27,607 bases of DNA. Source: a virus. Positions 2,590 through 24,563 of this stretch are shown here, piece after piece. Position numbers and translations under genes: made by a program. Under the pieces are notes generated by a model, which was not told the DNA's origin, did not search any database, and saw only the letters and a list, made by a program, of their open reading frames with translations. The stretch is taken from the IMG/VR virus record IMGVR_UViG_3300046006_003605, positions 1 through 27,607 of that record; one strand, given 5' to 3'. The stretch's first letter is position 1. Each line of letters opens with the position of its first letter.

Positions 2590-2630
2590 AATATTCTGCG
2601 TGTCTTCTTTTAAACACGGAGACAAATAAA

Positions 2631-3113
2631 ATGACAAACAAAAAATTCTTTTCTACAAAAACATACAGACAAATCGGACCAGTTGCTTATCGGCAATGGC
2701 GCGCCGATTCCCATTGCAATTTAATTCATGGTTATGCAATGAGTTTTCACTTTGAATTTGAAGCAGATACTTTAGATGCTCGCAATTGGGTTACTGACTT
2801 CGGAGGACTGAGACCACTTAAGGATAGTCTAGAAGAGTGGTTCGATCATACTTTACTTGTTGCTGAAGATGACCCTATGCGAGACGAACTACTACACTTA
2901 GGCAAAATTGGTCTGGCTAAAATTACAGAAGTAGAACGAACAGGGTGCGAAGGCATTGCTGATTTTCTATATGAATATATCAACACTATCTTTTTACCAA
3001 ATTGCGGTGCAGAAGAAGCAAAAAGAGTTTGGTGTTGCCGTGTAGAAGTTCGAGAAACAGATTCTAATATGGCAGGTCGAAATGGACATCGTGAAGATAA
3101 TGAATTCATCTAA
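2631..3113 (+). CDS. QueD/6-pyruvoyl-tetrahydropterin synthase-like protein
   Basis: 160 aa T-fold protein. QueD makes 6-carboxy-tetrahydropterin in the queuosine/7-deazaguanine pathway; PTPS acts in biopterin synthesis. Visible family motifs are SHCNLIHGY (Cys plus two zinc-type His), NWVTDFGGLRPLK (the DF..LK motif) and WFDHTLLVAEDDP (the catalytic DH motif). The third zinc-ligand position is Tyr (HGY) where the usual motif is HGH, so activity is uncertain. The start at 2631 is chosen because CGGAG (2617-2621) sits 9 nt upstream; an earlier in-frame start at 2550 would run into galE. No other queuosine or 7-deazaguanine gene is visible in the window, so it may feed a pathway completed elsewhere in the genome or by the host. 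Confidence 0.75.
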   Translation: MTNKKFFSTKTYRQIGPVAYRQWRADSHCNLIHGYAMSFHFEFEADTLDARNWVTDFGGLRPLKDSLEEWFDHTLLVAEDDPMRDELLHLGKIGLAKITEVERTGCEGIADFLYEYINTIFLPNCGAEEAKRVWCCRVEVRETDSNMAGRNGHREDNEFI

Positions 3114-10760: not shown

Positions 10761-10769
10761 TTGATACAG

Positions 10770-10793
10770 TATAGCGTACGCAAGTACGCTATA
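10770..10793 (+). other. Intercistronic RNA hairpin with GCAA tetraloop
   Basis: Perfect 10-bp inverted repeat: TATAGCGTAC at 10770-10779 pairs with 10784-10793 around a GCAA loop (10780-10783), a GNRA tetraloop. It starts 9 nt after the CobS-like stop and ends 9 nt before the ATG at 10803. No T-run follows, so it is not a classic intrinsic terminator. Possible roles are mRNA end protection, a processing site, or control of translation of the fucosyltransferase-like gene. As DNA it is also a palindrome that a dimeric protein could bind. Confidence 0.6.
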
Positions 10794-10802
10794 CCTACGT
10801 AT

Positions 10803-11636
10803 ATGCACACTAATGAAAATACTTATGATACGTTTATTCCTAGATGGTTTGGCCGTTTAGGTAACAACATACAACAAATATCTAACGGAATTTATTTCTG
10901 CAGAGATAACAAAATACATTTTACATCTCCAGATCACCCGATGATCGAAGCCATTGATTTGAATTTTGGCGACAATAAATTTGCCATACCGCCAAATTCT
11001 CACAATTGGTTTTACTTTTTCAATGGTTCAGATGCCGACTTTAGTACAGACGTCGATGCTTTAAATTTTCATCGCAAACATATCTGCGAAGAATATATAT
11101 TACCTAAACTTAAAATTAATCATAAAGAACTAGATGAACCATTGCCCGACGATGTATTGGTGATACATATTAGAAGCGGCGACATATACACTCATTGGCC
11201 ATCTTCTCACCCACAAAACCCCTTTGCGTACTATGTAAAACTATTCAATATGTATTACGGTAAAGTTATTTTTCTTGTAGAAGATCTGCGTAATCCGATT
11301 GTAGATTATTTTTCTAAAATTACAACCGATACAAGAGTGTGTTCTATTGAAGATTCCTACTCTCTTTTGCTAAGAGCAAAAAATATTGCGTCGTCGGGGG
11401 CAGGTTCTTTTGTTATTGGTGCCGCTCTTTGTTCTAAAAATATTAACAAATTTTATTGCACTGATCTTTGGCTACCGAATAGCATAAATCCTACTATGCT
11501 AAAAGATCATCTTGAGGTATACTGCGCACACCTAACAGGTGATAAATATATAAAAATTGGTGAATGGCATTCCTCCGCTGAAACCATTGATAAGATTTTA
11601 AATTATAACGAAGATATATTATTTGGGAGATTATAA
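10803..11636 (+). CDS. Fucosyltransferase-like protein (GT11-like)
   Basis: 277 aa from the ATG at 10803. Family clues are [10 protein letters not shown] at residues 16-25, which matches the G-x-LGN motif near the N-terminus of GT11 alpha-1,2-fucosyltransferases, and [10 protein letters not shown] at 120-129, the HxRxGD motif that contacts GDP-fucose in GT11, GT23 and related families. A later block [25 protein letters not shown] fits the third conserved region. An upstream TTG at 10761 is in frame but would place the hairpin inside the coding sequence and has no ribosome-binding site; the ATG also lacks a clear one, so the start is uncertain. The gene opens the glycan island, next to GMD and the GMER/ColC-like gene that could supply its GDP-sugar. 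Linkage and acceptor are unknown. Confidence 0.75.
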
Positions 11637-11637
11637 C

Positions 11638-12651
11638 ATGAATAAAAAAATTGCCTTAATCACAGGCATTACCGGTCAAGACGGGTCTTATCTTGCAGAG
11701 TTACTACTAGAAAAAGGATATGAGGTACATGGCGTAGTTCGTCGTAGCTCGTCTAGAAATACTGGTAGAATAGACCATATCTATAGTAATCCAAATTTAC
11801 ATTTGCATTATGGCGACATAACGGATTCGTTAACCATAATGAATATTCTTAAGAAACACAATCCATCTGAAATTTATAATTTAGCAGCACAGAGTCACGT
11901 AATGGTTTCCTTTGAGACTCCTGAATATACTGCAAGTGTGGACGGCTTAGGTACTCTAAAATTACTTGAGTCTGTTAGAATTTTAAATATGGATAAAACA
12001 ACTAAAATTTATCAAGCATCAACATCGGAATTATATGGATTGGTGCAAGAAACTCCGCAAAAAGAAACAACCCCATTTTATCCTAGATCGCCGTATGGTG
12101 TAGCTAAGTTATATGCATATTGGATAGTTAAAAATTATCGAGAATCATATAATATGTTTGCGTGTTCAGGAATTCTATTCAATCACGAATCGCCTCGGCG
12201 CGGATTTAATTTTGTGACTAAAAAAATTGTAGATGGGCTTGTTAATATTAGCGGTGGCTACCAAGATTGTTTATACATGGGCAACTTAAATGCTATGCGA
12301 GATTGGGGACACGCGAAGGATTATGTTCGAGCAATGTGGATGATGCTGCAACAAGATAAGCCGGATGATTTTGTTATTGCGACGGGCGAACAATATTCAG
12401 TCAAAACATTCATCGAAAAATGTGCACCTTATTATGGTATGTCTATTCGTTGGGAAGGCGCCGGCGTAGATGAAGTGGGTATTGATAATAATTCAGGAAA
12501 AACTATTATTCGTGTAGATCCTAAATATTTTAGACCTGCGGAAGTAGAGACTCTACTAGGAGATTCGACTAAAGCTAGAACTATTCTTGGATGGTCGCCG
12601 GAATATACATTTGATATGTTAGTAAAAGAAATGTGTATGGAGTTTAACTAA
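11638..12651 (+). CDS. gmd: GDP-mannose 4,6-dehydratase
   Basis: 337 aa. It converts GDP-D-mannose to GDP-4-keto-6-deoxy-D-mannose, the common precursor of GDP-fucose, GDP-colitose, GDP-perosamine and GDP-rhamnose. The NADP Rossmann motif is [10 protein letters not shown] at residues 10-19. The RR and R residues of [14 protein letters not shown] are the family's NADP-binding and tetramer segment. The active site shows STSELYG (128-134) and Y153xxxK157 (PYGVAK). FNHESPRRG is also diagnostic. Length is a little shorter than bacterial GMD (about 370 aa). The start at 11638 is chosen over a TTG at 11623 because GGGAG (11624-11628) is correctly spaced. The stop overlaps the next ATG by one base. 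Call is very secure. Confidence 0.95.
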
Positions 12652-13286
12652 TGTTCCCTCCTTCATATCGAAATATCAATAAAATAATTACGGAAAAATA
12701 TTTAAATTATGATTTTGGATTTTTTATTGAAGTAGGCGGGGCAGATGGATATACTCAAAGTAATACTTGGTATCTTGAAAAATACAAAAATTGGACAGGA
12801 GTTTTAGTTGAACCAAATTCGGATTCTGCAGAAATGTGTCGAAATAACAGACCAGATTCTAGCGTATTTAATTATGCATTAGTTGATCGGGAGTATCCAG
12901 ATTCGGAAATAACAATGGTACGTAGAGTGGTGTATCAAGGCGATCCCGGACTTATGACTGCGGCTAAAGATTCTCCGTTAAGAAATAATTCCGATTGGAT
13001 GCAACCGACAACAAGCATAGATAAAACTGAAGAATTTACTATACGTACTACCACACTTGATGAAATATTAGAATCTTTAGATATTAAAACTGTTGATTTC
13101 TTTTCTTTGGATGTTGAAGGTTATGAAGTACAAGTATTAAAAGGATTCAATTTGGAAAAATATTTGCCAAAGGTTATACTAATAGAATGGCATGACGATA
13201 TACAAACTATTTCCGATGTCTTATCTAATACCCATAAGTTAGCAGAACAACTATCTAAACATGATTATGTTTTTATTTTAAAATAG
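12651..13286 (+). CDS. FkbM-family methyltransferase
   Basis: 211 aa, SAM-dependent O-methyltransferase fold. Motif I is FFIEVGGADGYTQSN at about residues 24-38, the acidic residue binding the SAM ribose is in GVLVEPN, and VDFFSLDVEGYEVQVLKGF near 148-166 is the hallmark of the FkbM/Methyltransf_21 family. The C-terminus keeps VILIEWHDD. FkbM enzymes often methylate sugars of surface glycans or natural products, and the position between GMD and the GMER/ColC-like gene suggests methylation of the deoxyhexose or of the glycan that carries it. The ATG overlaps the GMD stop (TAATG), so the two are translationally coupled. Family secure, acceptor unknown. Confidence 0.85.
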   Translation: MFPPSYRNINKIITEKYLNYDFGFFIEVGGADGYTQSNTWYLEKYKNWTGVLVEPNSDSAEMCRNNRPDSSVFNYALVDREYPDSEITMVRRVVYQGDPGLMTAAKDSPLRNNSDWMQPTTSIDKTEEFTIRTTTLDEILESLDIKTVDFFSLDVEGYEVQVLKGFNLEKYLPKVILIEWHDDIQTISDVLSNTHKLAEQLSKHDYVFILK

Positions 13287-13295
13287 GATAGTAAA

Positions 13296-14237
13296 ATGGA
13301 AATGTATAAAAGTAGTAAAATATTTGTTGCTGGTCATAAGGGATTAGTTGGTTCAGCAATAGTAAATAAGTTGCGAAGCGAAGGATTTAATAATCTTGTT
13401 TTGCGAGATAAGGAATCTCTTGATCTTAGAAATCAATTGGAGGTTAAAGAATTCTTTAAAGCGGAAAAACCAGAATTTATATTTCTTGCTGCAGCAAAAG
13501 TCGGAGGAATAAATTGGAATTATACTCATCCCGCCGACTTTATCTATGACAATCTTCTAATACAATCAAATGTTATAGATTCTGCATATAGAAATGGAGC
13601 TAAGAAATTATTGTTTTTAGGATCGGCTTGCATCTATCCTAAGGTGACCCCCCAGCCAATTAAAGAAGAATATTTGTTGACTGCGCCATTAGAACCAACT
13701 AATGAGGGTTATGCTTTAGCAAAAATTACTGGTCTAAGAATGTGCGAATATTATAGACGGCAGTATGGTTTCAATGCGATTAGTTGTATGCCTGCAAATT
13801 TATATGGACCCAATGATAATTTTATACCGGAACACGGGCACGTTATTCCTGGCATTATTACAAAGTTAAGAAATGCCATCATTAACAATGATGACACGAT
13901 TGAATGCTGGGGTGACGGTACTCCTACACGAGAGTTTTTATATGTAGATGATCTTGCAGACGCATGCGTCTTTCTAATGCAAACTTATAATGAGGCACAG
14001 TTCATTAACGTGGGTAGTAATGAGGAATTAACAATTAAAGATTTAGCAGAAAATCTTAAATCCGCAATGGGGTTCACCGGAGAAATAGTTTGGAATACAG
14101 ATAAACCGAACGGTACACCTAGACGTAAAATGGATAATAGTAAATTGAATGCACTTGGTTGGAATGCCAAAGTAGATTTTAACGAAGGGCTAAAACGTAC
14201 AATAGAATGGTATAAAAAAGAAAAGGGGATGCTATGA
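13296..14237 (+). CDS. fcl: GDP-L-fucose synthase or ColC-type epimerase/reductase
   Basis: 313 aa extended SDR. GDP-fucose synthase (GMER) epimerises C3 and C5 of GDP-4-keto-6-deoxymannose and reduces C4. Visible features are the Rossmann motif AGHKGLVGSA (residues 12-21), AAAKVGGI (66-72), the catalytic LGSACIYPK with S110 and C112, Y139xxxK143 (YALAK) and the epimerase His in EHGHVIPGII. These fit GMER closely. ColC, which makes GDP-L-colitose from the 3-deoxy intermediate, belongs to the same family, and a ColD-type gene follows with a 4-nt overlap. The product could therefore be GDP-L-fucose, GDP-L-colitose or both; sequence reading alone cannot separate them. The spacing after the FkbM gene is 9 nt. 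Confidence 0.85.
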   Translation: MEMYKSSKIFVAGHKGLVGSAIVNKLRSEGFNNLVLRDKESLDLRNQLEVKEFFKAEKPEFIFLAAAKVGGINWNYTHPADFIYDNLLIQSNVIDSAYRNGAKKLLFLGSACIYPKVTPQPIKEEYLLTAPLEPTNEGYALAKITGLRMCEYYRRQYGFNAISCMPANLYGPNDNFIPEHGHVIPGIITKLRNAIINNDDTIECWGDGTPTREFLYVDDLADACVFLMQTYNEAQFINVGSNEELTIKDLAENLKSAMGFTGEIVWNTDKPNGTPRRKMDNSKLNALGWNAKVDFNEGLKRTIEWYKKEKGML

Positions 14238-15403
14238 GATGGCCGTTGATGGGTGAAACAATTACATTCACCGATAGATTAAAAATGGCATATTTTGCCA
14301 TGACTGCTGATAAATTCACTAACGGTGAACGAGTAAAGCAGTTTGAAAAGGAATGGAGTACTTGGTTAGGCGCAAAACATTCTTTATATGTATCCTCAGG
14401 TAGTACAGCAAACTTTTTACTGATTGCCGCCGCAAAAGAATTATACAATTTAAAACCTGGCGACAAGGTATTAGTGCCGGCATGTACATGGATGACAAAT
14501 GTTGCCCCTATTATACAGTTAGGATTAACTCCTATCTTCTGCGATGTTAATCTATCAAACTTTAGTTTTGATCTAACTGATGCTATTAAGATATCTAAAA
14601 AGCATGATATTAAAATGGTATTTGTTACGCACCTATTAGGATTTTCTGCAGATAACGAAGTACTAAAACGCATATTTACAAACGCAATTATTTTAGATGA
14701 CGTATGCGAATCGCATGGGTGTACAGACATTGCCGGAATTAAACGAGGCGCAAATAGTATGGGAGCTACCTTTAGCTTTTACTTCGGGCATCATATGTCT
14801 ACAATTGAAGGTGGCATGATATCTACAAACAACGATGATCTTTATGATTTAATGAAGATGAAACGCAGTCATGGTTTTGCTAGAGAGTCCACTCGGTTTG
14901 CCGAATATGCAGAAACATATAAGGATATAGACAAACAATTTTTATTCATAACAGACGGATATAATTTTAGAAACCATGAAATTTGCGCCGTGCTTGGTTC
15001 ATCTCAACTAAAGCGATTAGATGAGATGATAACTATTCGGAATAAAAATCATGAAATATTCTGTAAAATTATTGACAAATATCCGCATCTGTTTTATAAT
15101 ATTAAAAACTCTATAGGTAATAGTAGTTTCTGTTTGCCGTTTATCTGCAAGTCGCCAGAAATAATGAGGGCAATGAAAGATACGTTTACAAAAAATGGTA
15201 TAGAATATCGACCGGTAGTATCAGGTAATTTATTGCGTCAACCGTTTTTAGCAGAATATAGTATTGACACCGATAAAGAAATAACAAACGCAGATATTAT
15301 TCAGACACAGGGTGTGTATATTGGCAACAATCACTTTGTTACTTTGGAAGATATGAGATTTTTAGATAAAGTTGTAGGAGAAATATATGTCAACATTGGG
15401 TGA
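14234..15403 (+). CDS. colD: ColD-type GDP-4-keto-6-deoxymannose 3-dehydratase (DegT/AHBA fold)
   Basis: 389 aa PLP enzyme of the DegT/DnrJ/EryC1/StrS fold. Most members are sugar aminotransferases with a Lys that holds PLP. Here the segment SFYFGHHMSTIEGGM (residues 181-195) has His at the Lys position (H186, next to H187). In ColD of E. coli a His (H188) replaces the Lys and the enzyme removes the C3 hydroxyl in colitose synthesis; E1 of the ascarylose pathway has the same change. Other shared features are VSSGSTANFL near 53-62, LDDVCESHG at 154-162, and the C-terminal GIEYRPVVSGNLL and YIGNNH blocks, which resemble ColD as I remember it. Length also agrees (about 388 aa). With GMD and the GMER/ColC-like gene just upstream, a GDP-3,6-dideoxyhexose pathway is likely. 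Confidence 0.8.
   Translation: MRWPLMGETITFTDRLKMAYFAMTADKFTNGERVKQFEKEWSTWLGAKHSLYVSSGSTANFLLIAAAKELYNLKPGDKVLVPACTWMTNVAPIIQLGLTPIFCDVNLSNFSFDLTDAIKISKKHDIKMVFVTHLLGFSADNEVLKRIFTNAIILDDVCESHGCTDIAGIKRGANSMGATFSFYFGHHMSTIEGGMISTNNDDLYDLMKMKRSHGFARESTRFAEYAETYKDIDKQFLFITDGYNFRNHEICAVLGSSQLKRLDEMITIRNKNHEIFCKIIDKYPHLFYNIKNSIGNSSFCLPFICKSPEIMRAMKDTFTKNGIEYRPVVSGNLLRQPFLAEYSIDTDKEITNADIIQTQGVYIGNNHFVTLEDMRFLDKVVGEIYVNIG
15072..15100 (+). promoter_or_regulatory. Consensus sigma70-type promoter inside colD-like gene (possible)
   Basis: TTGACA at 15072-15077 and TATAAT at 15095-15100 are both perfect and 17 nt apart, followed by AT, so TTATAATAT recurs as in the promoters at 7250 and 9511. It lies inside the coding sequence (IDKYPHLFYN), so codon content explains the bases equally well. 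If active, it would drive the downstream glycosyltransferase genes from about 15107. Confidence 0.35.
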
Positions 15404-15734
15404 AAGTATAGAAGCAATTATTAAAAATACAGTCGATCGGGTATGTCAAGAAGATATGCCGGATTCGGAATATATCGCAACAGATAATCTAGGCGAGATT
15501 ATTGAGAAATTAGCAATTATTCATATTCGTATGTGGATGTTAGAAGATGCGATGCAAGCAGCAAAAACAGATGCAGAACTTGCAGAATTGAAACGCAAGG
15601 TTGATATTTGCTTTAAGGTTAAGCGTCCTAAATACGTACAAGCAATTAACACTATGGTGGATGACGCAATTCGAACGAACAAATCGTTAAAAGAAGATTC
15701 AGTAAAATTATATAAAGGTGTAGATAATGGCTAA
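15387..15734 (+). CDS. Small helical protein, DUF4254-like
   Basis: 115 aa, all helical by eye, no signal peptide. The central segment NLGEIIEKLAIIHIRMWMLEDA resembles the E-I-x-x-KL-x-I-x-x-I-x-x-W-x-L-E-x-A pattern of small proteins such as DUF4254 that sit beside glycosyltransferases in polysaccharide loci. The rest is Lys- and Asp-rich. It overlaps the colD-like gene by 17 nt and the next gene by 8 nt, so it is part of the same transcript. GGAGAA just before the ATG serves as ribosome-binding site. Function unknown; an accessory or assembly role with the glycan island is a guess from context. Confidence 0.65.
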   Translation: MSTLGESIEAIIKNTVDRVCQEDMPDSEYIATDNLGEIIEKLAIIHIRMWMLEDAMQAAKTDAELAELKRKVDICFKVKRPKYVQAINTMVDDAIRTNKSLKEDSVKLYKGVDNG

Positions 15735-16701
15735 AATTGTATTCTTTAATCATTACCATAGAGGCGATTTGTTGACGCATAAAGAATATGTTCGTCAATT
15801 AAAACGAGAATTGCCTGATTTAGAATTTGAGTATATGCATTTTAATCATTCTAAATTAACTAGGGATTTAGATATTCCGAAGGTAGGACAACCTACCGAT
15901 TTAGATGCAAAGACTCCGTTCTATCAGGAAGAAGATACTCTGTATATTAATACTTGGATAGGATGTTTCTGGGATATATTCTGTGAGCATGGCGGAATTA
16001 ATATGGATTCGCTTTGGCATCAATGGCAGAAAATTTTTGAAACCATTAATGCGGCATTTAGTGTGGAGTTAAAACTAAACACAGAAAAAGAATTTTATTT
16101 GCCATCTATAGATTTTAGTAGATTTGACACTACTACTATTGATGAGTATTTAAGTGAATCTATTGGTATTAAGAAAATTCTAATCTGCAATGGTGCGCCA
16201 CAATCAGGACAATCATTCTCATATAATATGTCTGATTTTATTCATAGCACTGCTAAAGAAAATTCTGACGTACATTTTATTTGTACTTCAAAATTTGATA
16301 CTGAAGAAACAAATATTCTATTTACTGATGATATCATTAAAGACACAGAACTCGAAGATGAAAAACGTGCACCATGGGAAGATAAAGGATTTTGCGACCT
16401 TCAAGAAATTTCATATTTGAGCGAACACGTAGATGGTATTGTTGGTAAGAATTCTGGTCCTTTTGTATTTTGCGAAACAAAAACAAATTATATGAATTCA
16501 ACCAAGAAGTTTTTATCGTATAATGTTAGTTGGGGAGAAGCATTCCATACCGGTGCGAAAAAACCAACAGAAACAATGTCGAATAATATGAATCTTAAAT
16601 GCGATTATAAAATTGTTCCTATTTCAGATATTCATAATTTAACAGATGCTGATGCAACTAATATTAAAAACTCTTTAAACGAACTAGCGAATAGCCTATG
16701 A
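15727..16701 (+). CDS. Putative glycosyltransferase-like protein of unknown family
   Basis: 324 aa, not firmly recognised. The first strand MAKIVFFNHYHRGDLLTHKEYVRQL looks like the start of a GT-B domain of GT9-like proteins, which often begin with a short strand and a G-D pair before an acceptor-binding helix. The second half has ILICNGAPQSGQSFSYNMSDFI and then ISYLSEHVDGIVGKNSGPFVFCET, where NSGP-type loops contact the nucleotide sugar in GT9-like folds. Trp- and Phe-rich segments (INTWIGCFWDIFCEHGG) are unusual. It overlaps the small helical gene by 8 nt and the GT10 gene by 4 nt. The genomic setting makes a sugar-transfer role likely, but this is inference. Confidence 0.6.
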   Translation: MAKIVFFNHYHRGDLLTHKEYVRQLKRELPDLEFEYMHFNHSKLTRDLDIPKVGQPTDLDAKTPFYQEEDTLYINTWIGCFWDIFCEHGGINMDSLWHQWQKIFETINAAFSVELKLNTEKEFYLPSIDFSRFDTTTIDEYLSESIGIKKILICNGAPQSGQSFSYNMSDFIHSTAKENSDVHFICTSKFDTEETNILFTDDIIKDTELEDEKRAPWEDKGFCDLQEISYLSEHVDGIVGKNSGPFVFCETKTNYMNSTKKFLSYNVSWGEAFHTGAKKPTETMSNNMNLKCDYKIVPISDIHNLTDADATNIKNSLNELANSL

Positions 16702-17576
16702 AAAAATTAAAATTGGGTTTTACCGATACACATGAACATTTATCTACATTCTTTGCTAGTCTGTTAGCTAATAGATTTGATGTAGAAATTGATAACGAAA
16801 ATCCCGATTATTTAATTTTTGGCGATGATAATTTCGGAACAAACAATACTAAATTCGATAAGAAGGATGTAGTTAAGATTTTCTATACTGGAGAAAATCG
16901 TCGTCCAGAGGATTATGATTGTCATTATGCAATATCCTTCGATCACAATTACAGCAATTGGCATTATCGTTTACCGTTATTTGTAATCTATATGTGGTCG
17001 TTAGATCAAATTCATAATACTGGTTATGACTATTATCACATTCTTCAGGATAATCTACCTAAGGAAAAAACAGATTTTTGTTCTTTTGTTGTAGGAAATC
17101 CTAAATGCGAAATACGTAATGACTTCTTTCGACGTTTAGGTAAGTACAAAAAAGTTGACAGTGGCGGCACACTATATAATAACATTAATGCTAGTCTTGA
17201 CGGGGAACAAGCAAAGATTGATTTTCTATCCTCAAGAAAATTTAATATTTGTTTTGAGTCGAGTGCGAATCCGGGTTATGTGACAGAGAAAATTCTACAT
17301 GCATATTATGCAAAGACTATCCCTATTTACTGGGGTAGCCCAACAATAACTGCAGATTTTAATCCGCTATCCTTTATCAATGTAAATAATTTCTATGATT
17401 TAGATGCAGTAGTAGATTATGTTAAGATGATTGATAACGACGATGACCTATATAATAGAATCCTAGCAGCAAGTCCTTTTGCTGGAAATATACCTAGAGA
17501 TTATGTTATGCTAAATAATTTCTTAAATTGGTTTGAATCGGTAGTTTATAATAAAATTGACATGAGAGAAGAATGA
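16698..17576 (+). CDS. Alpha-1,3/1,4-fucosyltransferase (GT10)
   Basis: 292 aa. GT10 enzymes move L-fucose from GDP-fucose to GlcNAc or glucose units. The family signature is complete: IFYTGENRRPEDYDCHYAISFD at about residues 61-82 (the conserved start of the donor domain is IFYTGEN), FCSFVVGNPKCEIRNDFF at 127-144, and FESSANPGYVTEK (186-198) followed by IPIYWGSP (208-215), which form the GDP-fucose pocket. Length is at the short end for bacterial GT10. Signal peptide and membrane segments are absent, so it acts in the cytoplasm. The start overlaps the preceding stop by 4 nt and the stop overlaps the next start by 4 nt. A GDP-colitose donor is possible given the ColD-type gene nearby. Confidence 0.9.
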   Translation: MKKLKLGFTDTHEHLSTFFASLLANRFDVEIDNENPDYLIFGDDNFGTNNTKFDKKDVVKIFYTGENRRPEDYDCHYAISFDHNYSNWHYRLPLFVIYMWSLDQIHNTGYDYYHILQDNLPKEKTDFCSFVVGNPKCEIRNDFFRRLGKYKKVDSGGTLYNNINASLDGEQAKIDFLSSRKFNICFESSANPGYVTEKILHAYYAKTIPIYWGSPTITADFNPLSFINVNNFYDLDAVVDYVKMIDNDDDLYNRILAASPFAGNIPRDYVMLNNFLNWFESVVYNKIDMREE

Positions 17577-18292
17577 AAATACAAACCTTCATTTTTAATT
17601 GGGTAGGCCAATACGACAATACGTATAACAAAGAACTACAATTAAAAGATTTCAATCCTGTTATTATTAACAGCGACGAAATCTACAACGATATTCCTGA
17701 ATGGCATCACATTGGGAATGATGCTTATTTTGGTGCGCAATTTGCCAAAGCAGTTGAATTATTTTTAGAGACCGACAATGAAGTATTATTTCATATACAA
17801 GGTGATGCATCATATAATGACTGGCCTAAACTATATGACGATGCAAACAAATATTTTGAGATGTCAGATTGGGGCATTTATGCACCTAATGTAGATTATA
17901 CATGGTATGACTCTAGCAGAACAGATATTAATAGTTTATATTTTCCGATTGACGGATTAAAAATTGTAGCAAACACAGATTGCACTTGTTGGTTCATCCA
18001 TAGAGATATTTTAAAACTCTACAAAGAACGTAATCTAAATCTTGAACAATATAAGATGGGTTGGTCTTGGGATATTATATTACCTAGCCTATGTTTTATT
18101 AATCAGCGACCTGTAATACGAGACTACAATCATACAATTCAGCATCCGCTAGGTACAGGATATGATACTAACCAAGCAGAAAAAGAAATGCAACAGTTAT
18201 ATGATACTTTGCCCGAGGATCTTCAAGAAGCGTTTCGATACATCAAAGGTGATCGGGAAAATTTAACCAAATATTATCAGACGCCGGCATGA
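17573..18292 (+). CDS. Putative GT-A glycosyltransferase-like protein
   Basis: 239 aa. The sequence reads like a GT-A domain without a clear CAZy family. The first strand IQTFIFNWVGQYDNTYNKELQL is followed by NEVLFHIQGDASYNDWPKL at about residues 73-91, where QGDA takes the place of the metal-binding DxD motif. Further on come WGIYAPNVDYTWYDS and a CTCWFIHRDIL block, and GWSWDIILPSLCFINQ near 163-178 fits the acceptor-side helix with an acidic residue. The protein is soluble. Its start and stop each overlap neighbouring genes by 4 nt, showing tight coupling in the island. Sugar transfer is inferred from fold pattern and context. Confidence 0.6.
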   Translation: MKIQTFIFNWVGQYDNTYNKELQLKDFNPVIINSDEIYNDIPEWHHIGNDAYFGAQFAKAVELFLETDNEVLFHIQGDASYNDWPKLYDDANKYFEMSDWGIYAPNVDYTWYDSSRTDINSLYFPIDGLKIVANTDCTCWFIHRDILKLYKERNLNLEQYKMGWSWDIILPSLCFINQRPVIRDYNHTIQHPLGTGYDTNQAEKEMQQLYDTLPEDLQEAFRYIKGDRENLTKYYQTPA

Positions 18293-18924
18293 AAAAAATT
18301 ATAGCGTTTAGTCTTTGGGGTAATAATCCTAAATATTGTGCCGGAGCAATACGCAATGCACAATTAGCTAAAACAATTTTTCCAGAATGGATATGTATTT
18401 TTTATTATAATGATACCGTACCTTCAACCTACATTAAAATTTTAAACGAATTTAATAATGTAGAATTAGTACGAATTGCCGATGGATCATTTGGAGCATT
18501 TTGGCGATTTTTTGATATGCTCGAAGATACAATTGTTATATCTAGAGATTGTGATTCTCGGTTATCGGAAAGAGAAAAACGCATTGTAGATGATTGGTTA
18601 CTTAGTAAAGAAAAAATGTGCGTAATACGAGATCATATTAATCACTACGAGTTTCCAATGCTGGCAGGTATGTGGGGTATTAAAAATGGACTTCATATAA
18701 ATTTGCATAAACCTATGGAACAATATTGGTATACGCATTCTTATTTGGTGGATCAATTTTATTTGCGAGATGTTGTATGGCCGGTGTTAAAAGATAATTG
18801 TAAAATTTATGGTATCAAGGAAACTGCTTGGATGCGAGAAACATATGAAAGTATTGGTATGGACTTTATTGGTCAAACATATTCAGAAGATGAATCTCCA
18901 GTATATCCCGGCGCTTTAGTATAG
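18289..18924 (+). CDS. Putative GT-A glycosyltransferase-like protein with DCDS motif
   Basis: 211 aa. A first strand IIAFSLWGNNPKYCAGAIRNA is followed by the metal-binding-type motif ISRDCDSRLSEREK at about residues 84-97 (DCDS as DxD). FPEWICIFYYNDTVP and SFGAFWRFFDMLED lie between them. The segment VIRDHINHYEFPMLAGMWGIKNG near 122-144 and DQFYLRDVVWP further on look like the acceptor region of small GT-A enzymes seen in marine bacteria and phages. No signal peptide. The gene overlaps the preceding one by 4 nt and ends 7 nt before the next. The DCDS motif and layout make a transferase likely; donor and acceptor unknown. Confidence 0.65.
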   Translation: MKKIIAFSLWGNNPKYCAGAIRNAQLAKTIFPEWICIFYYNDTVPSTYIKILNEFNNVELVRIADGSFGAFWRFFDMLEDTIVISRDCDSRLSEREKRIVDDWLLSKEKMCVIRDHINHYEFPMLAGMWGIKNGLHINLHKPMEQYWYTHSYLVDQFYLRDVVWPVLKDNCKIYGIKETAWMRETYESIGMDFIGQTYSEDESPVYPGALV

Positions 18925-18931
18925 GGTTAAA

Positions 18932-19624
18932 ATGGGTATCGCATTATTACATCATACAGGGTTAGGTGACCATTTCATGTGCAATGGTCTTGTTCATCAA
19001 TTAGCTGATAAGTATGGGGAAGTGGATTTGTTCTGCAAAGAGCATTTGTATAAAACTATCAATCACTTATACATGGATTTTCCTAACATAAAAATTATCC
19101 CGATTAAAAATGATTCAGAAGATCCATATCGGTATGCCGCAAATACACAAAAAGATCTAGTACGTGTTGGGTTTGAGCATACCGATTTCAATAGATTTGA
19201 GGAATCTTTCTATGAACAAGTAGGATTAGATGTTGATGATGAATTTGCATACTTTCAATTTCCCTCGGATTTATCTGGATCAAAAAAATTATATGAGCAA
19301 GTTGTTGCGGCAAAGGGAAAAGATTATATTTTTGTGCATAATGTGAGCTCTTATAAAGCATTTGATTTAAAGATAGAATCAACCTTACCTAGATTTGTGG
19401 TTAATAAAACAGATACAGATGACGTATTAGATTATATTGATACTATCTGTAACGCCAAAGAAGTACATATAATAAACAGCGGGTTACATAATTTAGTTTT
19501 CCAATTACTATGCCATGGAAAAGTAAATTCTGATAACGTATTTTTTCATGATGCAAGAAAACCAAAAGACGGTGGAATTGCTATTAGAATTCCTAGTGAT
19601 GTAAAGGTTATACAATATGACTAA
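18932..19624 (+). CDS. Putative GT-B (GT9-like) glycosyltransferase
   Basis: 230 aa. The N-terminus ALLHHTGLGDHFMCNGLVHQLA with G-LGD and then VDLFCKEHLYKTINHLYMDFPNIKIIPI is the acceptor-domain start of GT9-like proteins. The C-terminal half has DYIFVHNVSSYKAFDLK, then a strand and helix around EVHIINSGLHNLVFQLLCHGKV, with NSGLHN taking the place of the donor-binding loop. It is shorter than full GT9 enzymes (about 320-350 aa), so the donor domain seems reduced. It overlaps the next gene by 8 nt. No membrane segment. Assignment rests on pattern and context. Confidence 0.6.
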   Translation: MGIALLHHTGLGDHFMCNGLVHQLADKYGEVDLFCKEHLYKTINHLYMDFPNIKIIPIKNDSEDPYRYAANTQKDLVRVGFEHTDFNRFEESFYEQVGLDVDDEFAYFQFPSDLSGSKKLYEQVVAAKGKDYIFVHNVSSYKAFDLKIESTLPRFVVNKTDTDDVLDYIDTICNAKEVHIINSGLHNLVFQLLCHGKVNSDNVFFHDARKPKDGGIAIRIPSDVKVIQYD

Positions 19625-20357
19625 ACGAGTTACAATAATTACACCTACAACCGGTACAGATTACTTAGAACAATGTTTGCAATCAGTTAAGAAACAAACA
19701 TATAAAAACATCAATCACTTCGTTGTTATAGATGGGCAACAGTATGCGGAAAAAGCAAACAAAATTTTAGCAATTAATCCGAACGAAGAAAGAACAGTTT
19801 TATGTCTTCCGGAAAATACTGGGGCGGATGGGTATAATGGGCATAGGATTTATGGTTCTATTCCTTATCTATGTAATACTGATTATATAATGTACTTAGA
19901 TGAAGATAATTGGATTGACTCATCTCACGTCCAAAGTTTAATTGATACAATAGATGAGGGCAATGATTGGGCCTTTTCTTTAAGGAAAATTTATGGTAGC
20001 AATGGTGATTTTATTTGTACTGATGATTGCGAAAATCTTGGGCTGTGGCCGACTTGCATCAACGAAGAAGAACTCTTTGTAGATGTTGGTGCGTATTTCT
20101 TACCTACCGCAATTGCTATTCAAATTTCTCCTTTATGGTATAGACGAGCAAGACATCCTGAGGAACAGCCAGAAGTCGATAGACTTATTATGCAAATTCT
20201 GATAGAATATAATTTTAAATATAACACCAACGGTAGATATACGTTAAATTATAGAGTAGGAAACAGGCAAGATTCGGTACAAAAGGAATTCTTTTTGTGG
20301 GGAAATGCTAAGATGGAGCAAAAATATGGAGATTATTATCCGTGGCGCAAGAAATAG
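19617..20357 (+). CDS. Glycosyltransferase family 2-like
   Basis: 246 aa, GT-A fold. The first strand VTIITPTTGTDYLEQCLQSV, with SVKKQTYKNINHFVVIDG (residues about 23-40), is the classic GT2 opening; LPENTGADGYNG is the loop that meets the nucleotide, and YIMYLDEDNWID near 90-101 contains the metal-binding DED motif. A C-terminal block EEQPEVDRLIMQILIEYN is a likely acceptor or base region. The gene closes the glycan island and its 3' end overlaps the GTG start of the DUF3310 gene by 16 nt, so it is translated together with the replication genes that follow. Family secure; sugar and acceptor unknown. Confidence 0.85.
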   Translation: MTKRVTIITPTTGTDYLEQCLQSVKKQTYKNINHFVVIDGQQYAEKANKILAINPNEERTVLCLPENTGADGYNGHRIYGSIPYLCNTDYIMYLDEDNWIDSSHVQSLIDTIDEGNDWAFSLRKIYGSNGDFICTDDCENLGLWPTCINEEELFVDVGAYFLPTAIAIQISPLWYRRARHPEEQPEVDRLIMQILIEYNFKYNTNGRYTLNYRVGNRQDSVQKEFFLWGNAKMEQKYGDYYPWRKK

Positions 20358-21319: not shown

Positions 21320-22261
21320 ATGGATTATCGTGAAAATGAATTTCTTTGGGTTGAGAAATATCGCCCGAGGAAATTAGAAGATTGTATTCTTCCTGCTAGT
21401 CAGAAAACTATTTTTCTGGAAATGCTAGCAAAAGGAGAGATACAAAATATGTTATTATGCGGCGGCGCAGGCATGGGCAAAACGACAGTTGCCCGTGCTT
21501 TGTGCGAAGAGCTACAAACAGATTATATCATCATTAATGGATCAGAAGAATCGGGTATTGATGTTCTTCGTACAAAAATTAAACAATTTGCATCTACTGT
21601 TTCTTTTAGCGGTAAGCCAAAAGTTGTTATATTAGATGAAGCAGATTATTTAAATCCAAATTCTACACAACCTGCTCTCCGAGCATTTATGGAAGAATTT
21701 TCATCTAATTGTAGATTTATTCTTACTTGTAATTTTAAAAATAGAATCATTCCTCCTCTGCATTCTAGAGCAGCAGTCATTGAATTTAAATTACCGAAAG
21801 CAGATAAACCTAAAATTGCCTCAGCATTTTTTAAGCGAGTAAATGAAATTCTCAGCATTGAAAAAGTTGAGGCTGATGGCAAAGTTGTTGCAAAGGTAAT
21901 TGAAAAGCATTTTCCGGATTATCGCAGAGTTCTAAATGAACTTCAGCGTTATGGTGCATCTGGAAAAATTGATGAGGGTATCTTTGTAAGTTTAGGTGAG
22001 ACTAATCTTCAAGAGTTGATTGCATCTTTAAAAGATAAGGATTGGAAGAAGATGCGAACGTGGGTTGTTAATAATATCGACAATGATCCGCAAACTATTT
22101 TTAGAAAACTATATGATGTTTTATGCGATGAGGTTATACAAATACCTCAGTTAGTATTGCTGCTAGCAGATTATCAATATAAGTCCGCATTTTGTGCAGA
22201 CCAAGAAATTAATTTGGTAGCATGTTTAACTGAGATTATGGCAGCGGTAGAATTTAAATAA
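21320..22261 (+). CDS. 44: Clamp loader large subunit (gp44)
   Basis: 313 aa AAA+ ATPase. Four gp44 copies and one gp62 open and load the gp45 clamp. Motifs are WVEKYRPRKLEDCILP at residues 10-25, Walker A GGAGMGKTT at 49-57, Walker B VVILDEAD at about 96-103, sensor 1 ILTCNFKNRI near 135-144 and the SRAAVIEF arginine-finger region. T4 gp44 is 319 aa. GGAG at 21311-21314 precedes the ATG. The 34-nt gap after gp45 holds TATAAT at 21303-21308 without a matching -35 box. The stop overlaps the next start by one base. Confidence 0.95.
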   Translation: MDYRENEFLWVEKYRPRKLEDCILPASQKTIFLEMLAKGEIQNMLLCGGAGMGKTTVARALCEELQTDYIIINGSEESGIDVLRTKIKQFASTVSFSGKPKVVILDEADYLNPNSTQPALRAFMEEFSSNCRFILTCNFKNRIIPPLHSRAAVIEFKLPKADKPKIASAFFKRVNEILSIEKVEADGKVVAKVIEKHFPDYRRVLNELQRYGASGKIDEGIFVSLGETNLQELIASLKDKDWKKMRTWVVNNIDNDPQTIFRKLYDVLCDEVIQIPQLVLLLADYQYKSAFCADQEINLVACLTEIMAAVEFK

Positions 22262-22545
22262 TGATAAATCCCTTTGAAAATATATTCATTTGGATAAAAG
22301 AAGATTGGAAATCTCACCCTCTTCGTTTTAGTATTGAGCTACTTGCGTGGGCATTAAGTATCGGCTGTACTATGTGGATGGGGTATACTTTACCTAATCC
22401 TCCTTTCATATATCTTTATCCGTTGTTCATGATTCAATGTATGCTTTTTGCTTGGTCAGCTTGGACTAGGGGGTCAACAGGTATGATTGCAAATTACCTA
22501 TTGATAGTAACAATAGATGCAGTAGCATATGTGAGGATGTTATGA
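22261..22545 (+). CDS. Small membrane protein with three predicted helices
   Basis: 94 aa, function unknown. After an amphipathic start INPFENIFIWIKEDWKSHPLRF come three hydrophobic segments at about residues 25-42, 51-67 and 76-92. The loops contain the well-marked TLPNPPF and AWTRGSTGMIANY. The protein looks like a conserved family in marine T4-like phages, set between the two clamp-loader genes. Why a membrane protein sits there is unclear; tight coupling (1-nt overlap with gp44, 4-nt overlap with gp62) suggests that it is made at the same time as the replisome. Possible links to membrane anchoring of replication are speculation. Confidence 0.8.
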   Translation: MINPFENIFIWIKEDWKSHPLRFSIELLAWALSIGCTMWMGYTLPNPPFIYLYPLFMIQCMLFAWSAWTRGSTGMIANYLLIVTIDAVAYVRML

Positions 22546-22985
22546 GTTTATTCGGTAAGCCCGTTGAAAAAATTGAGGAAGTTCCGTATAAATCTCCCGC
22601 AATTTCTCCCTTTGATTTTATTAATTCTATACATCATTCTAAGCAAGATTTGATCGTAGATGAATGGTCCGAAAAACAATACAATCCCTTTATTATAAAC
22701 AAGGGATTATCATATGGACACGATACCGTTATACCCGCAAATGAGATGAATTCCCGCCCTCATTTGGATAAAATTCTTCAATTTCACTTTCTCATAAATA
22801 TTGTTAGACCTAGAAAAAGATTCAATAAATGGATAAAGGTCGATAAAATCGATGAATTGGAAGTAGTAAAAGAATACTATGGCTATAGCACAGAAAAAGC
22901 CAAACAAGTACTCCCCCTTCTAAATGAGTCGGTTCTTGATAAAATGAAGAAAAGCTTAACAAGGGGCGGTAAGAATGAGTACTGA
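22542..22985 (+). CDS. 62: Clamp loader small subunit (gp62)
   Basis: 147 aa partner of gp44 in the clamp loader. The pattern SPFDFINSIHHSKQDLIVDE at residues 21-40, then YNPFIINKGLSYGHDTVIPANEMN and RPRKRFNKWIKVDK, is the diagnostic series for T4-type gp62. The C-terminus YYGYSTEKAKQVLPLL is also typical. It is shorter than T4 gp62 (187 aa), as in marine relatives. It overlaps the membrane protein gene by 4 nt and the regA start by 11 nt. Gene order gp45-gp44-gp62-regA is that of T4, which supports the call. Confidence 0.9.
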   Translation: MSLFGKPVEKIEEVPYKSPAISPFDFINSIHHSKQDLIVDEWSEKQYNPFIINKGLSYGHDTVIPANEMNSRPHLDKILQFHFLINIVRPRKRFNKWIKVDKIDELEVVKEYYGYSTEKAKQVLPLLNESVLDKMKKSLTRGGKNEY

Positions 22986-23409: not shown

Positions 23410-23505
23410 TATATTACACATTGATCTCACGTTGAATCTTGCTGCAGCATCTTCAATAACCTGATCTTCATTAGCAGTACTTTTTATAAATATTAGGAGA
23501 ACAAT

Positions 23506-23577
23506 ATGTGGACAACACCATCGGCAATCGATTTGCGTTTCGGGTTCGAAATCACAATGTACATTGCAAATAGGTAA
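23506..23577 (+). CDS. pqqA: PqqA, precursor peptide of pyrroloquinoline quinone
   Basis: A 23-codon gene. The peptide begins MWTTP, continues with IDLRFGFEITMY and ends ANR. PqqA is the ribosomally made substrate for PQQ: PqqE, with the PqqD chaperone, joins the side chains of a Glu and a Tyr in an ExxxY motif. Here these are E15 and Y19, the same positions as in the 23-residue Klebsiella PqqA as I recall it, with which I count 14 identical residues. AGGAGA at 23495-23500 is a strong ribosome-binding site 5 nt before the ATG. G+C is 30 of 72 bases, above the AT-rich neighbours, which suggests acquisition from a bacterium. No pqqB-E genes are visible, so the phage would supply only the consumable peptide and the host the enzymes. 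Recognition is confident although the gene is short. Confidence 0.9.
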   Translation: MWTTPSAIDLRFGFEITMYIANR

Positions 23578-23735
23578 TACCGCTTTCCTCGGGATGGGAA
23601 CGTAAAGACTTCACCTTAGGACCGCTTTGGTACGGAGCGTGAATTAAGCTGGCACAACGATAGGGTGTCCCTGTATTCAGTAAGCAGGATAGCTATGCCT
23701 TCGGGGTAGCACTTTCTTTAACTCGCTTAATAGGA
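23578..23735 (+). ncRNA. GC-rich, probably structured RNA segment downstream of pqqA
   Basis: No start-to-stop gene fits this stretch, yet it is very unlike its surroundings: in 23578-23710 I count 69 G+C of 133 bases (52%) against an AT-rich background. A clear hairpin sits at 23692-23710: GCTATGCC and GGGTAGC pair with one bulged G around a TTCG loop, i.e. the very stable cUUCGg tetraloop. ATAGGG/CCCTGT around TGT (about 23660-23674) and UUCAC/GUGAA (about 23610 and 23639) are further candidate stems. It ends just before the ribosome-binding site (AGGAG, 23732-23736) of the next gene. It could be a riboswitch, a regulatory RNA, a tail of the pqqA message or a remnant of transferred host DNA. 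I know no RNA family that it matches. Confidence 0.5.
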
Positions 23736-23741
23736 GCACTT

Positions 23742-24038
23742 ATGATTACAGCCGATATTTTTATCGACACAGTTCAAAACGGCAAACGCCAATTCATTTC
23801 TAAATATGTAACAGACAAAGACCTTGCAAAACCACTCAACGATTTTGTGGATGCGCAGACTGTATTTTCGCACGCAGTAGTTACATCAGTGAAAGAATCT
23901 TTTGGTCATCTAAATAAAAAAATAACTCAAAGTAAAATTGAAGAAGTAATTAATCCATTTAATATTGATTGGGTTCAAGCAGGTATGAAAGCTTGGTTAG
24001 ATCAACCGGCAACTAAAACTAAACCATATAAGGAGTAA
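23742..24038 (+). CDS. Conserved small phage protein
   Basis: 98 aa, function unknown. It begins ITADIFIDTVQNGKRQFISKYV, with a helix, then LAKPLNDFVDAQTVFSHAVVTS, and ends with FNIDWVQAGMKAWLDQ and a Lys-rich tail. The pattern of a short helical N-terminus plus the LNDFVDAQT segment is one I associate with hypothetical proteins near gp45/regA in marine T4-like phages. Neither signal peptide nor membrane helix. AGGAG at 23732-23736 is well placed before the ATG. It ends 3 nt before hsp20, so the two are co-transcribed. Confidence 0.75.
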   Translation: MITADIFIDTVQNGKRQFISKYVTDKDLAKPLNDFVDAQTVFSHAVVTSVKESFGHLNKKITQSKIEEVINPFNIDWVQAGMKAWLDQPATKTKPYKE

Positions 24039-24041
24039 CAT

Positions 24042-24563
24042 ATGACGACTCCTGCTTTTAGTAATTTCATTTTTGGCCCAGCATATAAAGATGTTGAGAA
24101 GTTTTTTGTTGGTTATGATCAACAGTTTAATCGCATGGCAAAGTTTCACGATGACCTGGCGAAAAATGTACCAAATTATCCTCCATATAATATTAAGAAA
24201 ACCGGTGAGAATACTTATGCTATTGAATTAGCGGTTGCCGGTTTTGGTAAACAGGATATTGAGATTGAATTCGCAGATGATGTACTTATTGTCAAAGGAA
24301 ATACCTCTGAAGATAATAACGATTATTTGTTTAAAGGAATCGCTGCACGCAACTTTACTCGTACATTCGCATTGAATGAACAAATTGAAATTAAAGATGC
24401 AGAACTTTTTAATGGTATGCTTAAGATTGTACTAGAACGTATTATCCCCGAGCATAAGAAACCTAAAAAGATTGAAGTTAAAGATGCAAATGAACCTACA
24501 TCTTCTAACGGAAAAAAGTCTAAGAAAGAATTGTTATTGGAGGATACTAATGCAATTGATTAA
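24042..24563 (+). CDS. hsp20: Small heat-shock protein Hsp20 (IbpA-like)
   Basis: 173 aa ATP-independent holdase chaperone that binds unfolding proteins. The alpha-crystallin domain runs from about residue 46 to 140: YPPYNIKKTGENTYAIELAV (46-65), the GFGKQDIEIEF strand, then YLFKGIAARNFTRTF (around 95-109), which is the bacterial class A mark, and FNGMLKIVLERIIPE with the G-x-L motif. The C-terminal tail is Lys- and Ser-rich and lacks a clear IxI motif. Hsp20 genes are part of the extended core of cyanophages and other marine T4-like phages and may help virion or replisome protein folding. It follows the preceding gene by 3 nt and overlaps the next by 14 nt. Confidence 0.93.
   Translation: MTTPAFSNFIFGPAYKDVEKFFVGYDQQFNRMAKFHDDLAKNVPNYPPYNIKKTGENTYAIELAVAGFGKQDIEIEFADDVLIVKGNTSEDNNDYLFKGIAARNFTRTFALNEQIEIKDAELFNGMLKIVLERIIPEHKKPKKIEVKDANEPTSSNGKKSKKELLLEDTNAID

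Follow-up and report, generated by a model that had tools for sequence, protein, structure and literature searches.

We found that a 72-nt open reading frame in a T4-like phage genome encodes PqqA, the precursor peptide of the cofactor PQQ. The whole stretch of DNA analyzed, hereafter the window, is a linear IMG/VR record of 27.6 kb. We put the probability at about three in four that this frame is a functional pqqA which was acquired by the phage and supplies precursor to the PqqB-E enzymes of its host. The source of the gene was probably a Burkholderiales host, judging from the type of the peptide. Direct support comes from the identity of the gene, its intact frame, its solitary occurrence, its recurrence in unrelated phage lineages, its association with PQQ-making hosts and the strong constraint on its peptide.

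A pqqA gene in the replication cluster of a T4-like phage

The gene and its neighbors are as follows.
21320..22261, + strand: gp44-type clamp loader; closest isolate Methylophilales phage Melnitz, 61.6%
22542..22985, + strand: gp62-type clamp loader subunit; PF16790, 43.4 bits
22975..23409, + strand: regA, translational repressor, directly 5' of pqqA; PF01818, 154.7 bits
23495..23499, + strand: Shine-Dalgarno AGGAG, predicted from sequence, 6 nt ahead of the pqqA ATG
23506..23577, + strand: pqqA, 23 codons; ATG at 23506, TAA ending at 23577; peptide MWTTPSAIDLRFGFEITMYIANR
23742..24038, + strand: 98-aa ORF; no Pfam or PHROG match
24042..24563, + strand: Hsp20 small heat-shock protein; PF00011, 60.8 bits; phrog_432, 142.4 bits

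The peptide MWTTPSAIDLRFGFEITMYIANR scored far above the cut-offs of both curated models of the PqqA family, with 40.8 bits for Pfam PF08042 (cut-off 21.1, E 2e-10) and 38.8 bits for the NCBIfam equivalog TIGR02107 (cut-off 20, E 5.5e-10). It shares with the family its length and the residues W2, P5, R11, G13, E15, T17 and Y19, and its Glu and Tyr, three residues apart (E15 and Y19), are the pair joined by PqqE. The PqqA motif was found in none of 300 shuffled windows. A sequence-only reading of this DNA had claimed a complete 23-codon gene with a ribosome-binding site, its PqqA identity and the placement of Glu15 and Tyr19, and had proposed a search against PqqA models as a check. The coordinates, frame, stop and sequence match, AGGAG is present, both residues are in position and the model scores bear out the identity. 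The frame is also kept in the nearest relative, contig L249. Since the peptide there is identical and the DNA is 97% identical, the two differ by synonymous changes only. The stretch 23506-23577 is therefore a genuine PqqA-family gene inside a viral genome. It departs from the family in being encoded alone, without pqqBCDE.

The window belongs to a T4-like phage, in which the core genes gp44, gp62, regA, sliding clamp and gp46/gp47 are present. The order in its replication cluster is gp46/gp47, sliding clamp, gp44, gp62, regA, pqqA, 98-aa ORF and hsp20, so that the lone pqqA claimed earlier for a T4-like phage does lie between gp44/gp62/regA and hsp20. The closest isolate for gp46 is also Methylophilales phage Melnitz (51.1%).

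Recurrence in related T4-like phages

Together with T4-like core genes, pqqA was found in 27 loci (L476 being the same record as L249). The order regA-pqqA-hsp20, for which the sequence-only reading had suggested a search, occurs in the near-identical L249 and, apart from it, in no fewer than 11 divergent T4-like contigs (L043, L053, L060, L085, L119, L384, L389, L391, L392, L439 and L450). In L380 and L449, pqqA lies farther from regA and still ahead of hsp20, and in the remaining T4-like loci it follows hsp20 or lies between hsp20 and gp44. Among the 80 closest relatives by regA, pqqA was present in one, the near-identical L249, within the flanks examined; relatives with 85-88% identical regA have no pqqA at this site. 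A search of the whole records of 26 of these relatives detected it in 2. The gene is thus dispensable in the window's lineage. As judged from these fragments, the distribution looks like repeated gain and loss of pqqA in one genomic neighborhood.

Extent of pqqA in phages

A tblastn search of 50,697 phage records returned 12 matches. Nine of these are cultured Methylophilales/Methylophilaceae phages (P19250A, Venkman, MEP301, MEP401, MEP402 and four Melnitz) representing several unrelated lineages, and the others are one uncultured podovirus and two contigs named Acinetobacter phage MD-2021a. The one of these two contigs that was inspected (L006) consists of bacterial DNA, including an entire pqqABCDE operon and a polyphosphate kinase. 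Neither Roseobacter phages CRP-4/5, which are kin of MEP401/402, nor Pelagibacter phages akin to Melnitz were among the 12 matches. None of the records inspected has pqqA annotated. At 72 nt the gene is too short for gene callers with their usual minimum of 90 nt, and PHROGs has no family matching the window peptide. Phage pqqA has probably been overlooked for these two reasons, the second as judged by the window peptide.

In IMG/VR, a degenerate DNA pattern detected at least 120 contigs, and all 120 among the matches listed carry intact short PqqA frames. A stricter pattern, satisfied by 10 of the first 120 contigs, added at least 110 further distinct contigs (111 matched places), all with intact PqqA frames, which brings the total to at least 230. 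Scaled by 120/10, IMG/VR would contain at least some 1,400 pqqA contigs if the first 120 are representative. When the contig DNA examined was searched by tblastn with Acinetobacter proteins as queries, pqqB, C, D or E was found beside pqqA in 0 of the 230 contigs listed; as a control, the same search found pqqB-E at 39-62 of 119 bacterial pqqA loci. A methanol dehydrogenase partner for pqqA was considered and dropped, being detected in only 1 of 50 records searched. A viral contig of 72 kb (loci L329 and L330, in the L063 record) carries, in addition to pqqA, a full-length PQQ-dependent methanol/ethanol dehydrogenase, like Baikal VP_266 discussed below, and a viral record of 356 kb (L045) carries a solitary pqqA. 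We lean towards the view that pqqA is a common and systematically overlooked auxiliary gene in phages of PQQ-making bacteria, which unrelated lineages have acquired repeatedly and which tracks the host, not the phage lineage.

What is new is how widespread pqqA is in aquatic phages, cultured ones included; one case of phage pqqA was already published. PqqA and methanol dehydrogenase were reported in the T4-like Lake Baikal population VP_266, with a predicted Methylophilaceae host (Coutinho et al. 2020, PMC7678222), which refutes the earlier statement that pqqA had not been described in a T4-like phage. The same role for phage PqqA, as an auxiliary metabolic gene, was already proposed in that work (PMC7678222). 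VP_266 and the window are alike in being T4-like phages with pqqA; however, the VP_266 representative encodes a methanol dehydrogenase and is assigned to Methylophilaceae, whereas in the window the peptide is of the Burkholderiales type and the 27.6 kb include no dehydrogenase. A 2026 paper also lists pqqA among virus-encoded genes from reservoir sediment (PMC13188868). In the open literature, no mention of phage pqqA was found in the papers on MEP301, MEP401/402, Venkman and Melnitz.

Selection on the peptide

Among phage pqqA copies diverging by up to about 20%, pN/pS was 0.04-0.14. These values, together with the purely synonymous differences between the window and L249, indicate that phage pqqA is maintained by purifying selection. 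The invariance of W2, P5, G13, E15, T17 and Y19 is by construction since these residues were fixed in the fetch pattern, and variants of Glu15 and Tyr19 were therefore searched for separately. No Glu15 variants were found with patterns covering codons starting with A, C or T and half of those starting with G, and no Tyr19 variants with patterns covering all codons not starting with T as well as T followed by C, G or T. In a geometry control with Glu and Tyr kept, the variant-search pattern fits 99 of 120 and 100 of 110 loci. R11, which the fetch pattern left free, is invariant in 119 of 119 distinct sequences.

Peptide type and host

PqqA type was assigned by nearest peptide, a sequence of 23 residues being too short to give a supported tree. 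All 68 Methylophilaceae copies of PqqA have EMRFGFEVTMYV[MC]N, and EITMYIANR occurs in 27 of 48 Burkholderiales PqqA and in no Methylophilaceae. The window peptide is 21/22 identical to that of a Burkholderiaceae MAG, at best 15/22 identical to Methylophilaceae, and up to 90.9% identical to plasmid-borne Burkholderia PqqA. Since the peptide is of the Burkholderiales type, the host of the window is probably a member of the Burkholderiales from freshwater or an estuary, on a 22-residue argument that assumes the gene came from the lineage of the present host; a methylotroph, as suggested earlier, is not what these values point to. The MAG with the closest peptide encodes PqqE (543.6 bits), and in its genus pqqE and a strong PqqA occur in the same four genomes. 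Models for methanol/ethanol and membrane glucose PQQ-dehydrogenases (TIGR03075 and TIGR03074) found no match in this genus. For the 230 IMG/VR contigs listed, the nearest peptides are from Methylophilaceae in 149, Burkholderiales in 45 and others in 21, with 15 ties. Many phage PqqA peptides are identical to host ones.

Proposed role in precursor supply

We propose that the phage would produce extra PqqA peptide during infection, and that host PqqD and PqqE would bind this peptide and cross-link Glu15 to Tyr19, after which host PqqB, PqqC and protease would complete PQQ. With the added PQQ, periplasmic dehydrogenases that depend on this cofactor, and through them respiration, may stay supplied during shutdown of the host genome. 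Expression of pqqA, processing of the peptide by host enzymes, higher PQQ and a benefit to the phage are what we infer. As PqqA is spent one per PQQ and PqqB-E are reusable, a 72-nt pqqA would be the cheapest added PQQ capacity. Cyanophage psbA is a phage auxiliary gene that supplies a limiting, consumed component. It likewise contributes one component to a host-encoded pathway; the component here is a 23-aa precursor consumed one per cofactor.

The copy numbers of pqq genes in Methylophilaceae, the family of the hosts of the cultured pqqA phages, would agree with a supply of precursor only. We counted 4.3 pqqA copies on average (median 4, range 1-12), and PqqE is present in 76 of 80 genomes, as a single copy in nearly all of those; 3-12 pqqA copies versus one pqqBCDE set were reported previously (PMC4109929). 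The solitary extra pqqA genes of this family likewise lie apart from the single pqqBCDE operon, although they are chromosomal there and viral here (PMC4109929). Many pqqA versus one pqqE is the pattern expected if the consumed peptide, and not the enzymes, limits PQQ synthesis, and by this analogy a phage that supplies precursor only would fit the same logic. The pqqA transcripts of a methylotroph overproducer reach their maximum together with PQQ synthesis (PMC9851590). Overexpression of pqq genes gave limited PQQ gains only (PMC9851590), and the supply of precursor may therefore not always limit. Two further observations count against the proposed role: the closest-match genus has no TIGR03075 or TIGR03074 match, and pqqA is dispensable in the window's lineage.

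It is unlikely that the gene is a neutral passenger, a pqqA copy picked up from a host by recombination and lasting only a short time with no advantage to the phage. Its absence from the site in the relatives with 85-88% identical regA and its GC content, 41.7% versus 34.5% for the window and as expected of a fairly recent arrival, would agree with such an origin, as would the ease with which multicopy host genes are captured. However, pqqA is repeatedly present in unrelated phage lineages, recurs near regA/hsp20 in divergent phages, is under purifying selection among phage copies and shows no substitutions at the cross-linked Glu15 and Tyr19. That the additional PQQ acts chiefly as an antioxidant or is exported, and is not for dehydrogenases, is in our opinion quite improbable. 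In the closest host genus neither of the two PQQ-dehydrogenase families tested turned up, as this explanation would have it, but the 149 of 230 listed phage peptides nearest to Methylophilaceae argue otherwise, since methylotrophs use PQQ methanol dehydrogenases, and one pqqA phage record encodes a methanol dehydrogenase as well. We give still less credence to a decoy peptide that titrates PqqD/PqqE or blocks PQQ synthesis and so redirects host metabolism. A decoy could explain why the peptide is encoded without the enzymes, yet it need not retain both reactive residues, for which no variants were found, and many phage peptides equal those of hosts. The idea that the viral contig is mis-assembled or includes host DNA, as does the MD-2021a entry with its bacterial pqqABCDE, is already refuted for this window by the flanking regA and hsp20, by the same arrangement in the independent contig L249 and by pqqA in cultured phages.

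If precursor supply is the correct reading, phages that infect abundant aquatic methylotrophs and Burkholderiales feed a consumable peptide into a host cofactor pathway and thereby affect the oxidation of methanol and sugars at large scale. Routine phage annotation misses very short auxiliary genes of this kind. The role of phage pqqA is directly testable because cultured phage-host pairs exist (MEP301, MEP401/402, Venkman, Melnitz and P19250A).

Noncoding elements and other features of the window

Two noncoding features were considered around pqqA.
23485..23492, + strand: TATAAATA, match to the T4 late-promoter consensus just 5' of the ribosome-binding site; weak candidate, absent in L249
23587..23736, + strand: conserved noncoding element between pqqA and the 98-aa ORF; present also in relatives without pqqA

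Comparison of the upstream regions showed that TATAAATA is not conserved in L249; the candidate was dropped and no late promoter is claimed for pqqA. A leader hairpin was also rejected, as the upstream region of the window folds no better than shuffles; on average, pqqA upstream regions fold slightly better than shuffles (mean z of -1.1 for phage and -1.3 for bacterial ones). The 96-nt gap between regA and pqqA (23410-23505) is kept only in L249, and no origin was found for its sequence. The noncoding stretch 23578-23741 has no stable fold (z 0.39).

The element at 23587-23736 sits in the gap from regA to hsp20 in T4-like phages, both those that carry pqqA and those that lack it. Its 3' part resembles the ROSE_3 thermometer, with 18.9 bits in the window and 26.9 bits (E 4.6e-4) in L252 against a gathering score of 43. 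A ROSE-like 3' end would suit a leader ahead of hsp20, the match being weak and sub-gathering. In the short versions of the element (L085, L250 and L252), inspection by eye indicates a hairpin loop that pairs downstream, with changed yet complementary sequence, and a covarying 3' hairpin.

Elsewhere, the window encodes a 6-pyruvoyl tetrahydropterin synthase family protein (2628-3113; PF01242, 58.8 bits). About 10 kb of sugar genes lie within the replication region (10761-20357): a GDP-mannose dehydratase, an epimerase-type gene, a DegT aminotransferase, an FkbM methyltransferase, a GT10 fucosyltransferase and a GT2 glycosyltransferase.
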